Positions 35,069 through 40,810 of a stretch of DNA of 62,795 nt are shown here, in pieces. The notes beneath the pieces were generated by a model. The model searched no databases, was not told the origin of the DNA, and worked only from the letters and a program-made list of their open reading frames with translations. How positions within the stretch are numbered: position 1 is the stretch's first letter; every line of letters begins with the position of its first letter. The stretch is from Roseicyclus sediminis. Its GTDB lineage: Bacteria; Pseudomonadota; Alphaproteobacteria; Rhodobacterales; Rhodobacteraceae. The position numbers and the translations under genes are program-made. The stretch covers positions 1 through 62,795 of the forward strand of contig NZ_JAOPHT010000019.1 of the NCBI RefSeq assembly GCF_025515305.1, in the 5' to 3' direction.

Positions 35069-36109
35069 ATGGGAACCGGAACCCTCCACATCGACCTCGA
35101 CGCGCTCGCCGCCAACTGGCGCGCGCTCGATGCCATGACCGCCTGCGAGACCGCCGCCGTGGTCAAGGCGGATGGCTACGGTCTCGGCGCCGTCCCCGTC
35201 GCCCGGCGTCTGGCCCGTGAAGGCGCGCGGCGTTTCTTCGTCGCCGTCGCCGAGGAAGGCGCCAGCTTGCGCAATGCGCTCGGCGAAGGCCCCGAGATCT
35301 GCGTCTTCTCCGGCCACATGGAAGGCGACGCCGCGATCCTCGCCGGCGCCCGCCTGACGCCGATGCTGAACAGCCCCGAGCAACTCTCTCGCCACCGCCA
35401 CGCGCTCCCCGGTGCGCCCTACGGCGTGCAGCTCGACAGCGGCATGAACCGGCTGGGGATGGAGCCCGCCGACTGGGCCGCCGTCCGCGCCGAGGCCGAG
35501 GCCGGCCCACTGCGCATCGTGATGAGCCACCTCGCCTGCGCCGATGAGCCAGGCCACCCGGCCAACGAGGCGCAGCTGCGCCGGTTCCGCGAGATGACCG
35601 AGGGTGCCGGTGCCCCCCGCTCCCTCTCGGCCACGGGCGGCATCCTCCTCGGCGCCGACTACCATTTCGAGCTGACGCGTCCCGGCGTCGGCCTCTATGG
35701 CGGGCTGCCCTTCGCGGACGCCACGCCGGTGGTGAGCCTGTCGCTTCCGGTGATCCAGGTCCGCGACCTCGCCCCGGGCGAGACGGTGGGCTACGGCTGC
35801 AGCTTCACAGCGACGCGGCCGACGCGGATCGCGACGGTCGCGGCCGGCTATGCCGACGGTCTGATCCGCGCCATGTCGGGCCGCGCGACCCTGTTTGCGG
35901 GCGCGACGCCCTGTCCGCTGGCCGGCCGCGTGTCCATGGACCTCCTGACGGTGGACGTGACAGACCTCGCCGAGGTGCCCGGATCGCTCGACATTCTCGG
36001 GCCGTCGCAGGGCGTCGACGACCTCGCCGGGGCGGCCGGCACCATCGGCTACGAGATCCTGACCTCGCTCGGATCCCGCTACGACCGCCGCCACACGGGC
36101 GAGGCATGA
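35069..36109 (+). CDS. alr: Alanine racemase
   Basis: A 346-residue PLP enzyme that makes D-alanine for peptidoglycan. The PLP lysine is in [13 protein letters not shown] (about 28-40). The C-terminal catalytic Tyr is in VGYGCSF and the domain interface contains [14 protein letters not shown]. It starts [17 protein letters not shown]. Its last four bases overlap the MlaE gene, the start of a seven-gene run. A possible promoter (TTGACC) lies just upstream. Confidence 0.95.
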
Positions 36110-36894
36110 TCCGCGCCGCGACACGCCCCCTCGCCTTTGTCGGCCGCACCGTCCTGGGCCTGCTCGGCGCGATCGGCCGCGTCGCGATCTATTTCGGGGC
36201 GACGCTCGGCCATGTCCTTCGCCCGCCCTGGTATCCGCGCGAACTGCTGCACCAGCTTCTGCACATCGGCTGGCTCTCGCTCCCCGTCGTGGGACTGACG
36301 GCGCTCTTCACCGGGGGCGCGCTCGCGCTGCAGATCTACGCCGGCGGCTCGCGGTTCAACGCCGAGGCGGTGGTGCCCTCCATCGTCGCCATCGGCATGA
36401 CGCGCGAGCTTGGCCCCGTCCTTGGCGGGCTCATGGTCGCGGGTCGGGTCGCCGCCGCCATCGCCGCCGAGATCGGCACGATGAAGGTGACCGAGCAGAT
36501 CGACGCGCTGGTGACGCTGTCCACCAACCCGATGAAATACCTCACGGTCCCGCGCGTCCTCGCGGCCACGCTCTCGCTCCCCGTCCTCGTCGCGGTGGGC
36601 GACTCGATCGGCATCTTCGGCGGCTACCTCGTGGGCACCACGCGGCTCGGCTTCGACCCGGCGACCTACATCCGCAACACCGCCGACTACCTCGAAGCCT
36701 GGGACGTGATCTCGGGCCTCGTGAAGGGGGCGGTCTTCGGCTGCATCGTCGCGGTGATGGGTTGCTATCACGGGATGAATTCCGAACGCGGCGCGCGCGG
36801 CGTGGGACGCGCCACGACCCGCGCCGTGGTCTCCGCCTCGATCCTGATCCTCGCGGCGAACTACCTCCTGACGGAAGCGTTCTTCTCGGCATGA
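36106..36894 (+). CDS. mlaE: MlaE/YrbE-type ABC transporter permease
   Basis: A 262-residue integral membrane permease of the lipid-trafficking MCE transport family (about five to six membrane segments). The hallmark is [33 protein letters not shown], followed by EQIDAL. It normally works with an ATPase and a periplasmic MCE protein to move phospholipids across the periplasm. It overlaps alr and the ATPase gene by four bases each. No MCE gene follows. Confidence 0.92.
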
Positions 36895-37637
36895 TCCGGC
36901 TCGAGGGCGTCACAAAGGCCTTCGGCGCCAAGCAGGTCCTCCGGGGCATAGACCTCGATGTCGAGACGGGCGAGAGCCTTGTCGTCATCGGCGGGTCCGG
37001 CACCGGCAAGTCGGTCCTCCTCAAGTGCATCCTCGGCCTCGTCCGGCACGATGCGGGCCGCATCCTCCTCGATGGCGAGGACGTCACGCGCACCGACCGG
37101 GACGCCTTCCTCGCGCGCTTCGGGATGCTGTTCCAGGGCGGCGCGCTCTTCGATTCGATGCCGGTCTGGCAAAACGTCGCCTTCCGCCTCCTGCGCGGTC
37201 CCGGCCGCCTGCCGAAAGCCGAGGCGCGCGCCGTCGCCATCGAGAAACTCGCCCGCGTCGGCCTCGACGCCGACACCGCCGAGCTCTATCCCGCCGAGCT
37301 CTCGGGCGGCATGCAGAAACGCGCGAGCCTCGCCCGCGCCATCGCCGCCGAGCCCGACATCATCTTCTTCGACGAGCCCACGACGGGCCTCGACCCGATC
37401 ATGTCGGGCGTCATCAACGCGCTGATCCGCGAGATCGTGACCGAGATGGGCGCGACGGCGGTGACGATCACCCATGACATGAGTTCCGTGCGGGCCATCG
37501 CCGACCGCGTGGCGATGCTGCACGCGGGCAAGATCCGCTGGCACGGGCCGGTCTCGGAGATGGACGCGGCCGGGGACTCCTATCTAAGGCAGTTCATCAC
37601 CGGCGCCGCGGACGGCCCGATCGGAACGCTCCGGTGA
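36891..37637 (+). CDS. mlaF: MlaF-type ABC transporter ATP-binding protein
   Basis: A 248-residue ATPase. Walker A is GGSGTGKS (near 38-45), signature LSGGMQKRASLARAIA, Walker B IIFFDEPTTGLDPIMS and H-loop ITHDM. It pairs with the permease just upstream. Start ATG 36891 overlaps the permease stop. Confidence 0.94.
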   Translation: MIRLEGVTKAFGAKQVLRGIDLDVETGESLVVIGGSGTGKSVLLKCILGLVRHDAGRILLDGEDVTRTDRDAFLARFGMLFQGGALFDSMPVWQNVAFRLLRGPGRLPKAEARAVAIEKLARVGLDADTAELYPAELSGGMQKRASLARAIAAEPDIIFFDEPTTGLDPIMSGVINALIREIVTEMGATAVTITHDMSSVRAIADRVAMLHAGKIRWHGPVSEMDAAGDSYLRQFITGAADGPIGTLR

Positions 37638-38056
37638 CGGCCGGGCTACTCATCGGCTCGCTTTTCGCGGTCTGCCTCTTCCTCCTGCCGCTCAGCACGC
37701 TGGCGGCGGGGGCGCTGCGCTGGCGCAACGGGGCGCGCGGCCGACCGCTGCACATCGCGACCGCGGTGTTCTCCGCCGTGGCGCTCGCGGCCCTCGCGGC
37801 GCTGGCCCTGGGCTCCCATGCGGCCGCGGCGATCCTCGCGGTCCCGCTGGCTGCCCTGGTGGCCGGGCCCGCCTGGCTTGTCGGCGCGCTGCTCGCCCGC
37901 GCCCGGCCGCCGGCCGCGGATCTGGGGGTGATCGCCGCGACGCTCCTCTTCGTGGCCGCCTCGGCGCTCGTCACATCGACACCGGGCGCCAGGATGCCCG
38001 GTTTCTTCGCGATGACGATCCCCGGACCCGACGATCCGCCCGGGCAGACCCGATGA
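37634..38056 (+). CDS. Small polytopic membrane protein in the mla-pqi operon
   Basis: A 140-residue protein with about four hydrophobic segments (residues 4-28, 42-60, 64-88, 97-113) and a short proline-rich C-tail. It starts at GTG 37634, overlapping the ATPase stop (GTGA), and ends overlapping the next gene (ATGA). Coupled translation argues it works with the transporter. Family not recognised. Confidence 0.8.
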   Translation: MTAGLLIGSLFAVCLFLLPLSTLAAGALRWRNGARGRPLHIATAVFSAVALAALAALALGSHAAAAILAVPLAALVAGPAWLVGALLARARPPAADLGVIAATLLFVAASALVTSTPGARMPGFFAMTIPGPDDPPGQTR

Positions 38057-38421
38057 CCCCCATCGCCGTCGTCGAGGCCGTCGCCACCCTGTTCTGGACC
38101 TATGCGGGCCTCGCCGGGATCGAGTGGGCCGTCCGCCTCGCCCGGACCGAGCGGCGCGAGCATATCCCGCTTGTCGCCGAACTGACCGGCCACCTCGTGC
38201 CCGCGATGATCATGCTTCTCGTCGTGGTCCTCGCCGGCGCCTTCTTCGGGTTTCCCACCGTCGTCGTCGTCATCGCCATCCTCTTTCCCGCGGGCCTCGC
38301 CGTCGGTCTGCACATGGGGCTGAACGACCTGCGCGAGGCGACGTGGCGCGGCGAGGCGACGCGCTTCGCCCTCACCGCGCTGATCGGCGGCGCGGTGATC
38401 TGGATGCGGCAATTCGGGTGA
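38053..38421 (+). CDS. Small membrane protein, paralogue of the 39020 gene product
   Basis: A 122-residue protein with three hydrophobic segments. The segment LAVGLHMGLNDLREATWRGE and the WM close to the end (AVIWMRQFG) match the protein encoded at 39020-39400 (LAWGFHQGLSEVRQANWRST and YLWMSG). The two genes flank the PqiA-like gene. Overlaps of four bases with its upstream neighbour indicate one operon. Function unknown. Confidence 0.82.
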   Translation: MTPIAVVEAVATLFWTYAGLAGIEWAVRLARTERREHIPLVAELTGHLVPAMIMLLVVVLAGAFFGFPTVVVVIAILFPAGLAVGLHMGLNDLREATWRGEATRFALTALIGGAVIWMRQFG

Positions 38422-38440
38422 AGCCCGTTTCCTCCCGACC

Positions 38441-38504
38441 CTTCATCCTGGCAGGAAAACTCTCGGGGGGCGCCGCCCTTGGCGGCGGGGGGCAGACAGC
38501 CCCC
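38441..38504 (+). repeat. Dispersed intergenic repeat, long form (copy 5)
   Basis: CTTCATCCTGGC, AGGAAAACTC, CGGGGGG, a CGCCGCC/GGCGGCG hairpin, then GGGGGGCAGACAGCCCCC. It interrupts an otherwise gap-free operon, between the 122-residue protein gene and the PqiA-like gene, and matches the element at the window's left end in opposite orientation. Confidence 0.75.
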
Positions 38505-38555
38505 CTGCTCCGCCCGCCCCTTGCACCGGCCGGCGGCAGGTCACACCTGCTGCCG

Positions 38556-39023
38556 ATGCCCCGCTCGTCCATGCTCCGCCTGCTCTTCGGCCTGAACCTG
38601 TCGCTCCTGGTGCTCTTCCCGCTGGCCTGGGGCGCGCCGCTGATGCGCGCGGGCCTCCTGCCGCTCTTCGGGCTGTCGGAGGTGTCGGTCCTCTCGGGGC
38701 TTTCCGCCCTCTGGCAGGGCGGCGAGGCCGCGCTCGCGATCCTCGTGGCGCTCTTTGCGCTCGTGGCGCCGATGGCCAAGACGGTCCTGCTGGCGCTGAT
38801 CCACCTGTCCCGCGCGCCCACGCGCCTGTTGCCGGCGCTGCAGCTTCTGGGCAAGCTGGCCATGGCCGACGTCTTCTTGATCGCGGTCTACATCACGCTC
38901 GCCAAGGGCCTCGCCGTCGGCCGCGTCGAGACCGCCTGGGGCCTCTGGCTCTTCACGGCCTGCGTGCTGGCCTCGCTCGGGATCGGCATCGCCACGGCCC
39001 GCCACATCCGGAAACAGACATGA
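38556..39023 (+). CDS. pqiA: PqiA-like integral membrane protein
   Basis: A 155-residue protein with four membrane segments and the PqiA signature GKLAMADVFLIAVYI. PqiA proteins act with MCE-domain PqiB in envelope lipid transport. Starting at 38556 leaves the repeat element at 38441-38504 untranslated; an in-frame GTG at 38418 would place that repeat in the protein, which looks wrong. The 3' end overlaps the next gene (ATGA). No pqiB-like gene is present nearby. Confidence 0.8.
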   Translation: MPRSSMLRLLFGLNLSLLVLFPLAWGAPLMRAGLLPLFGLSEVSVLSGLSALWQGGEAALAILVALFALVAPMAKTVLLALIHLSRAPTRLLPALQLLGKLAMADVFLIAVYITLAKGLAVGRVETAWGLWLFTACVLASLGIGIATARHIRKQT

Positions 39024-39400
39024 CGACCTTCATGATCCCGCTCGCCGTCTTTCTCGCCGCCTTCGCAGCACTTGCGGGCCTGTCGTGGCTCCGCCGTGCC
39101 ATCGGCGAACCCGCGGCGCGGCGGAAGGGCATGGCGCTGAACCTCGCGCGCCGGTCCGGACCGCCGGTCATCGCCGGGATCGCGGTCCTTGCGCTCGGCG
39201 CGGCCCTCGGCGGTGCGGGCACGGGCCTTCCCGCCGCGATCCTTGTCGCGGGTGGCCTCGCCTGGGGCTTTCACCAGGGGCTTTCCGAGGTCCGGCAGGC
39301 CAACTGGCGGAGCACGGGGCTCCGCGCGCTTCTCGCGTTCGCCGCCGCCACCGCGTATCTCTGGATGTCGGGTCTGGCCGGGGGCGGACCCCCGGCCTGA
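39020..39400 (+). CDS. Small membrane protein, paralogue of the 38053 gene product
   Basis: A 126-residue protein with three hydrophobic segments (about 5-22, 50-62, 70-85) and a C-terminal LAWGFHQGLSEVRQANWRST...YLWM block shared with the 122-residue protein. It is the last gene of the operon, overlapping the PqiA-like gene by four bases and ending three bases before the convergent autotransporter gene's stop. Function unknown. Confidence 0.82.
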   Translation: MTTFMIPLAVFLAAFAALAGLSWLRRAIGEPAARRKGMALNLARRSGPPVIAGIAVLALGAALGGAGTGLPAAILVAGGLAWGFHQGLSEVRQANWRSTGLRALLAFAAATAYLWMSGLAGGGPPA

Positions 39401-39403
39401 GGC

Positions 39404-40810
39404 TCAGAAGCGGAACGCGAAGCGGAGCGAACCGCTCGTGCTGCGCAGGTCGCCGCCGAGGCCGCTCAGCTCCACCGAGGTGTCGAGAAGGACGCCGCCG
39501 CCGATCTCGGTCGAGAGGCCAAGCTCCAGCCGGCCCGTCCAGCCGTCGTCGATCAGGAGGTCCGAGACCAGCGCCGTATCCGACGAGGTGTCGAGCCAGT
39601 CGGCGTGGAGCCCCCCGAAGAGTTCGCCGCCGCCGATCGTCTGGCTGATCTCGGCACCGAACGAGGCCTGCGTGAAGCGCACCGTCTCGCGGCCTGCGCC
39701 GGCGAGCGTGCCGCTGACGCCCTCGATCCGCTCGACCCCGTGCACGAGGCCCAGCATCGGCGTGACCGTGACGCCCGGCTGCAGCGCGATGTCGTAGCCG
39801 CCGCTGAAGGTCAGGGCCGTCAGGCGCGTCTCGCCGGTGCCGTCGCCGCCGCCCGAGCTCTGCGAGAAATCGCCGTGTCCGTAGAGCAGCGACGCCTCGC
39901 CTGCCCATGCGCCGGAGCGATAGGCGAAGTAGGGCTGGAGGTAGCGCAGCACGCCGTCCTGGCTGACGGTGCCGACGCTGCCGTCGAGGTCCTGCACCCC
40001 GAAGGAGAGGCCCGCCACCATGTCGGGACCCAGCGCGATGTCGGCGCCGATCTGCAGGCCGCGGCCGGAATAGGCGCGGTTCGTGCCGTCATCCTCGGCG
40101 CGGAAGCCGGTGAGGTCGATCCAGGTGTAGACCTCGCCCATCATGCCTTCGTGCGCCATCGTGGACTGGGTCACCTGCAGTTCGCCGGTCTCGGGGTCGG
40201 CCACGCGGGTGAAGGAGAGCATCGCGTCGCGCGTGGTCAGGCTGTCCTGGCCGCGGTCGCCGGCGAGACCGCCTGCGTTGATCACGACAAGACGACCGGC
40301 GGCATTCGCGCCCGCGGCGAGGTTGGCGATTTCTTCGGTGACGGTGGGACCCCAGCCGAGTGTGGCGCCGACAAATTCGAACGCAAACGGCGCGGAGACC
40401 GGACACGCAAATACACAGCTGTAGGTCACAGTGGCCTGATCACCGTCTGTAAAGCCACCAACGCGAAAGGAAGACGCTGATGCCCCGAAATTGATGAAGG
40501 CAGTTCTGGACGACACCGTCTCGGTCGCTGGAACAGGTTGCGTCAGATCGGCATCCGTAAGGAAGAAAGCGACTCGGTCTTGAAATGACACGGCTGCAGG
40601 GTATTCGACACCAAAGACGCCAGAATTCGTGACTGTCACTCGGTAGACGAACCCGTTTCCATCCGCTGCGACACTTCCTGGCGTCGTGTAAAAAGGTGAG
40701 GCAGCAGAAAGGTCGCCGCTGACGGACGTCTGCCCCCACGCTGGCGCCACGATCGCCGTGCTGGCGAGACAAACTGCGGCAAACGTCTTTGTTTCGGGGA
40801 AAATGCGCAT
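39404..40810 (-). CDS. Autotransporter-type outer membrane beta-barrel protein
   Basis: A 468-residue protein. The signal peptide (about 1-26, ending AWG) precedes a roughly 170-residue passenger resembling a beta-rich IPTL/DUF11-like domain with SSRTAFINFGASASSFRVGG. From about residue 215 there is a series of alternating hydrophobic strands (GLQIGADIALGPDMVAGLSFGVQD and so on) ending in ...SGSLRFAFRF, the terminal aromatic typical of outer membrane barrels. The 5' third has noticeably lower GC than the rest, hinting at recombination in the passenger. Role (adhesin or autotransporter) inferred. Confidence 0.82.
   Translation of the reverse strand: MRIFPETKTFAAVCLASTAIVAPAWGQTSVSGDLSAASPFYTTPGSVAADGNGFVYRVTVTNSGVFGVEYPAAVSFQDRVAFFLTDADLTQPVPATETVSSRTAFINFGASASSFRVGGFTDGDQATVTYSCVFACPVSAPFAFEFVGATLGWGPTVTEEIANLAAGANAAGRLVVINAGGLAGDRGQDSLTTRDAMLSFTRVADPETGELQVTQSTMAHEGMMGEVYTWIDLTGFRAEDDGTNRAYSGRGLQIGADIALGPDMVAGLSFGVQDLDGSVGTVSQDGVLRYLQPYFAYRSGAWAGEASLLYGHGDFSQSSGGGDGTGETRLTALTFSGGYDIALQPGVTVTPMLGLVHGVERIEGVSGTLAGAGRETVRFTQASFGAEISQTIGGGELFGGLHADWLDTSSDTALVSDLLIDDGWTGRLELGLSTEIGGGVLLDTSVELSGLGGDLRSTSGSLRFAFRF

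Follow-up and report, generated by a model that had tools for sequence, protein, structure and literature searches.

In the maintenance of lipid asymmetry (Mla) system of E. coli, which also includes MlaB, the inner-membrane genes form one operon. This one-operon layout is not needed for the Mla complex. In the PqiABC and LetAB systems, a two-domain PqiA stands next to a multi-MCE protein. Here we describe a gene run within a 62,795-nucleotide stretch of Roseicyclus sediminis DNA (positions 1 to 62,795 of contig NZ_JAOPHT010000019.1; this whole stretch is hereafter called the window). This run carries alr, mlaE, mlaF, pqiA and genes for three small membrane proteins of 140, 122 and 126 residues (S140, S122 and S126), and we compare it with the known systems to judge how its MlaE and MlaF products are most likely to function.

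Two further groups of published observations are relevant. Alphaproteobacterial single-MCE genes are reported to adjoin NDUFA12 rather than ATP-binding cassette (ABC) genes (Isom 2017, PMC5561183), and an NDUFA12-mlaD neighbourhood appears in a Thioclava strain (PMC9226611). The mlaD-NDUFA12 neighbourhood is thus already in print, and excerpts of the two papers leave its ABC partner unnamed. A chimeric Mla-Pqi system called Mpc, whose MCE protein is given as 331 residues long in an excerpt of its description, has also been reported (PMC12436622).

A putative Mla system divided among three loci

On the basis of sequence comparisons, we consider it very probable that mlaE (36106-36894) and mlaF (36891-37637), both on the forward strand, encode the ABC half of a Mla system that is ordinary in kind and whose genes are split over three places. 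The first product matches the Mla ABC transporter permease families (PF02405, E 1.1e-76; TIGR00056, above cut-off), and its nearest solved chain is 7ch8_G (E 8.2e-44). The second, whose start was set by its ATGA overlap with mlaE, is an ATPase of the Pfam family ABC_tran; its best NCBIfam model is that of MlaF (PRK11831, E 4.7e-57), yet the match falls below the model's cut-off. The window therefore encodes together an MlaE-family permease and an ATPase nearest to MlaF.

The original prediction for this locus pointed out that known MlaEF and PqiA systems need an MCE protein and that none is encoded in the run. For the locus this is borne out, as no MCE domain was found from alr to S126. Two explanations had been offered, namely that the MCE partner is encoded elsewhere in the genome or that the small proteins replace it, and the genome provides the former. 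When the genome (in which the contig bearing mlaE and mlaF is designated C10) was searched with PF02470, two MCE genes were recovered, one for a short, 154-residue MlaD on contig C1 and one for a 579-residue protein on contig C33. Each has one MCE stretch and neither adjoins the window's pqiA. The term ‘MCE-less’ thus applies to the locus only and not to the genome.

The mlaD gene lies between NDUFA12 and DUF2155, which are followed by aat on the opposite strand (Pfam assignments), and 7ch8 is the best-matching solved complex for both its product and the window's MlaE. Adjacent mlaA and mlaC genes are located on contig C31 (Pfam MlaA, E 1.4e-65; Pfam MlaC, E 7.3e-35). The genes for MlaA, MlaC, MlaD, MlaE and MlaF therefore occupy three places, and, unlike in E. 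coli, the inner-membrane genes are not in one operon, with mlaEF on C10 and mlaD on C1. In Rhodobacter sphaeroides, mlaC is described as being under CenR control in an excerpt of a published study (PMC9275681).

A further difference from the E. coli system is that no dedicated MlaB was seen. The genome yields five STAS_2 matches, three of them above the cut-off and two, on contig C35, below it. The three are a fusion to MlaE on C33, a match beside CheB/CheY-like open reading frames (ORFs) and a match beside an anti-sigma-like ORF, with these neighbours named by eye. No standalone STAS_2 match above the cut-off was found in an Mla-like setting in this genome, a check that covered the three stronger matches. 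Neither of the matches on C11 and C31 (L129, L131) looks like a dedicated MlaB. Judging from gene content, the system may work without one. The distribution of MlaB is sparse according to an excerpt of a published survey (PMC10665443).

By analogy with the established Mla mechanism, in which the inner-membrane complex is MlaE2F2D6, MlaA would remove phospholipid that is out of place in the outer membrane, and MlaC would carry it across the periplasm to the MlaD hexamer, from which MlaEF would drive it back into the inner membrane. The gene run with mlaEF also holds PqiA, S140, S122 and S126, which would be separable neighbours.

Co-occurrence, joint loss and gene order in the family

We sampled 80 genomes, that of R. 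sediminis plus 79 more from the same family with each genus represented once, and searched them for window-type MlaE (at least 56% identity, a threshold set by eye), short MlaD, MlaC, MlaA, PqiA, S122/S126 and MCE domains. Genomes at least 90% complete, 73 of the 80, were treated as near-complete. The gene lists for co-occurrence were typed by hand from the search tables, and the PF02470-based listing of MCE genes gives lower bounds. Window-type MlaE was scored in 69 genomes, including partial copies in G019, G069, G022 and G033 and copies with an internal stop in G013, G059 and G064; it was counted as absent from nine near-complete genomes and from the incomplete G008 and G021.

Within the near-complete set, short MlaD was found in 64 of the 64 genomes with MlaE and in none of the nine without it, leaving no mixed cases (Fisher 1e-11). 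A conserved MCE gene accompanying the operon in every genome had been named in the original prediction as an observation that would refute it, and this is the pattern recovered. Across all 80 genomes, 67 have both genes, nine have neither, two have only MlaE and two have only MlaD, and the four mismatches (G008, G021, G033 and G068) are genomes that are 74-82% complete. The periplasmic and outer-membrane components largely follow: among near-complete genomes, MlaC accompanies MlaE in 63 of 64 and is missing from all nine MlaE-less genomes, and MlaA is scored in 62 of 64 and in one of the nine. The five components encoded by the R. sediminis genome, which are MlaE, an MlaF-like ATPase, a short single-MCE MlaD, MlaC and MlaA, are thus mostly present or absent together. 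Some MCE gene (PF02470) is present in all 73 near-complete genomes.

The nine near-complete genomes that lack Mla are G006, G026, G037, G050, G055, G058, G066, G067 and G071. In these genera alr is still near radA, and neither mlaE nor mlaF has a match in the stretch read around radA. On a tree of 71 rows built from four markers (DnaB, Alr, RadA and CvpA, missing from 22, two, one and one rows, respectively), the absences require seven changes, at least six of which are forced by starred branches, and a single clade is rejected. Over six independent pairs, MlaD moves with MlaE in 5.7 on average and never in the opposite direction. Because this joint loss is repeated across three loci, the alr-side, NDUFA12-side and mlaA-mlaC loci appear to form one system; the repeated disappearance of nearly the whole Mla set within a single family is, at the level of gene content, strong evidence for this arrangement.

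Several observations weigh against so tidy a picture. The tree is the product of a quick search. G071 retains MlaA in the absence of MlaC, MlaD and MlaE, and G064 (L118) has MlaD and a stop-containing MlaE match, with neither MlaA nor MlaC found; loss of the Mla system may be under way in this lineage. MlaA is lacking from G059, whose MlaE match contains a stop, and the MlaA scored as present in G011 is only a fragment at a contig end. PqiA is weakly associated with MlaE (50 of 64 near-complete genomes versus four of nine, p 0.046), and some link between PqiA and Mla is therefore possible. Finally, the genome encodes a second MCE system with its own MlaE and ATPase, and its cross-pairing with the window's MlaEF remains compatible with the sequences.

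This second system bears on an alternative in which the window's MlaEF pairs with the 579-residue protein instead of MlaD; in its favour, the genome search turned up no MCE protein besides these two. The C33 run (L121, 3825-8238) consists of a fusion of STAS with MlaE, an ATPase that shares 43% identity with the window's MlaF, the 579-residue protein with its one MCE domain and an ABC_trans_aux lipoprotein. By its predicted products it is a complete Mpc-like system, separate from that of the window: like Mpc as excerpted (PMC12436622), it combines STAS-MlaE and an ATPase with a long MCE protein and with a lipoprotein of the PqiC type, although its MCE protein is the longer of the two. Given that the run has its own permease, ATPase and lipoprotein, and that, among the matches listed, C33-type MCE proteins occur in six of the nine near-complete genomes lacking window-type MlaE and in 14 of the 64 that have it, we judge such a pairing to be very unlikely and retain MlaD as the partner of the window's MlaEF.

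In a comparison conceived after the data had been seen, an Mpc-type MCE or PqiAB-type system was present in nine of nine near-complete Mla-less genomes, whereas 35 of the 64 with Mla carry one (p 0.009, a post hoc test). It is possible that such envelope-spanning systems compensate for the loss of Mla.

Gene order was read at 57 MlaE loci (L010-L066), a subset of the MlaE-bearing genomes. The alanine racemase gene alr (35069-36109, forward strand, in the window; Pfam Ala_racemase_N/C) is directly upstream of mlaE and on the same strand at 55 of these loci, and the other two have no alr match. The same stretch contains radA at 47 loci and PqiA at 41. On the other side of the proposed system, the order NDUFA12-mlaD-DUF2155-aat is kept at all 14 MlaD loci fetched (that of R. 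sediminis and 13 others), in agreement with the neighbourhood reported in excerpts of PMC5561183 and PMC9226611. No MlaE match was found at these 14 loci, four of which contain remote matches to ABC ATPases, at 25 to 32% identity. A literature search on Rhodobacterales with mlaE and mlaF returned no paper, which says nothing about print at large.

In other genera, a protein of 250-300 residues that has a hydrophobic segment or two and, as judged by eye, a similar charged tail recurs in this region. It is located between pqiA and radA at L041, L042, L046 and L047, and between alr and radA at L101, L106 and L107, which are from Mla-less genera.

The small membrane proteins

S140 (37634-38056), S122 (38053-38421) and S126 (39020-39400) are all encoded on the forward strand. 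S140 has four hydrophobic segments by hydropathy count. S122 and S126 had been proposed to be paralogues, and this relationship is upheld both by a single-sequence search of the genome (E 3.4e-8, 30% identity) and by profile-profile comparison (probability 98.6%, E 7e-16, 115 columns), to which pair S140 does not belong. The shared ‘RxAxWR’ block and closing ‘WM’ that had been cited for the pair are not conserved in relatives; instead, the invariant columns of a ten-row S122/S126 alignment are A18, L44, P50, G85, H87, L90 and R104.

Known families offered no useful match. Neither S122 nor S126 matches a Pfam family at E up to 1, and S140 does so only at E 0.56 or worse; NCBIfam gives no match for any of the three. 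Membership of S122/S126 in a Pfam family was also rejected with the ten-row alignment (best E 0.17), as were a PHROGs family for the small proteins (E up to 0.1), sequence kinship with a solved structure (none at E up to 1) and a known fold for S122 (of 64 fold matches at E up to 10, not one reached 0.001). The possibility raised earlier that the small proteins are simply PqiA fragments is likewise rejected, with profile-profile probabilities of 0.2% for S122 and 0.4% for S126. Kinship with two types of small protein that occupy the same slot in other genera was also rejected at 0.1 to 0.5%, with alignments of only three and seven rows from which a distant link could escape.

Given that the small proteins are encoded within the mlaEF run with 4-base-pair overlaps, and that S122 appears subject to purifying selection (compared with its G083 relative, nonsynonymous divergence dN is 0.14 and synonymous divergence dS is 0.55, with differences mainly at silent sites), one could imagine that S122 and S126, or S140, replace MlaD and thereby create an MCE-free lipid transporter. 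However, a short MlaD is encoded in this genome as in every near-complete genome with MlaE, and PF02470 has no match in S122, S126 or S140 at E up to 1. The MCE domain is a beta-barrel, whereas S122, predicted as a monomer, was modelled from the ten-row alignment as four helices with no strand (mean predicted local distance difference test score, pLDDT, 89.6). Moreover, the S122/S126 family is confidently found in only three of the 80 genera (that of the window, G011 and G078); a fourth, G072, gives a single weak match. The G078 copy is solitary, and the surrounding 9.9 kb that were read contain no gene of the mla, alr, radA or pqiA kind. Even within the window's genus, S122 was found without S126 in G083. 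We regard replacement of MlaD as highly improbable, and the original prediction as accurate in its local description and wrong in this stronger suggestion.

Elsewhere in that genus, both proteins were found in G080, only S126 in G082, and S126 with a partial S122 match in G081. Named relatives include records of Roseibacterium and Roseicyclus, a record under the label Roseobacter and three whose names stop at family or order. From these searches, the pair constitutes a duplicated family that is all but confined to one genus group; in the Roseibacterium/Roseicyclus group, S122 homologues occupy the same slot. For S140, one homologue was found, in the same slot of L125 (43% over 108 residues). 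At L124 (7218-7937), on a G011 contig, an ORF that by eye resembles an FkbM-type methyltransferase lies between mlaF and S122, in the slot of S140.

An accessory role for the small proteins is possible. S122 adjoins pqiA at all seven loci with S122 relatives, two of which (L122 and L124) repeat contigs of G083 and G011, and mlaF is also upstream at six, the remaining one (L128) being cut by a contig end. These associations would fit a reading in which, within the Roseibacterium/Roseicyclus group, S122 and S126 serve MlaEF or PqiA as accessory or regulatory subunits. Against this, most genera with MlaE and PqiA lack both proteins, the G078 relative stands alone, and different small membrane proteins fill the same slot in other genera; grouping by eye places one type of these proteins in the alr-radA slot of the Mla-less G050 and G067 as well. 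Such a subunit role is therefore doubtful. We are equally reserved about a broader version, in which this four-helix family, duplicated on both sides of a single-domain PqiA in one genus group, would be a new accessory module for tuning or coupling the lipid transport of PqiA or MlaE, and in which a half-size PqiA would work without PqiB.

PqiA and the architecture of the gene run

The pqiA gene (38556-39023, forward strand; PF04403, E 2.4e-17) encodes one domain, which matches residues 86-218 of YebS (LetA; 9n8w_A, E 6.3e-6). This differs from the two-domain PqiA of PqiABC and LetAB, and no multi-MCE PqiB was found in the genome by the PF02470 search, whose two MCE genes have one MCE stretch each. 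For the family survey, locus-type PqiA was separated from PqiAB by score, and also by place where the stretch had been fetched. PqiA is kept in four of the nine near-complete Mla-less genomes and missing from 14 of the 64 Mla-bearing ones, and an obligatory role in Mla is rejected on these counts. There is also no association between locus-type PqiA and C33-type MCE proteins (p 0.77). From this distribution, we regard PqiA as a neighbour with loose ties to the Mla genes.

The original prediction described alr, mlaE, mlaF, the small-protein genes and pqiA as one run in which most neighbours overlap by four bases, and this holds at five of the six junctions. The overlap is ATGA at alr/mlaE, mlaE/mlaF, S140/S122 and pqiA/S126, and GTGA at mlaF/S140. 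Only S122 and pqiA are separated, by a GC-rich gap of 134 base pairs (38422-38555) that holds a GC-rich, inverted-repeat-like stretch, 24 bases of which are single-copy within the window. A consensus scan of this gap found neither a terminator nor a sigma-70-type promoter. G+C content is highest at the third codon position in all seven genes (0.86 to 0.97). Immediately after S126, on the reverse strand (39404-40810), is an ORF of 468 residues whose C-terminal part appears autotransporter-like by eye.

Taken as the ABC half of a divided Mla system, the operon would be no exception to the rule by which MlaEF acts together with an MCE protein. The comparison also indicates the ABC partner of the NDUFA12-linked mlaD of alphaproteobacteria, which would be the mlaEF pair located beside alr.

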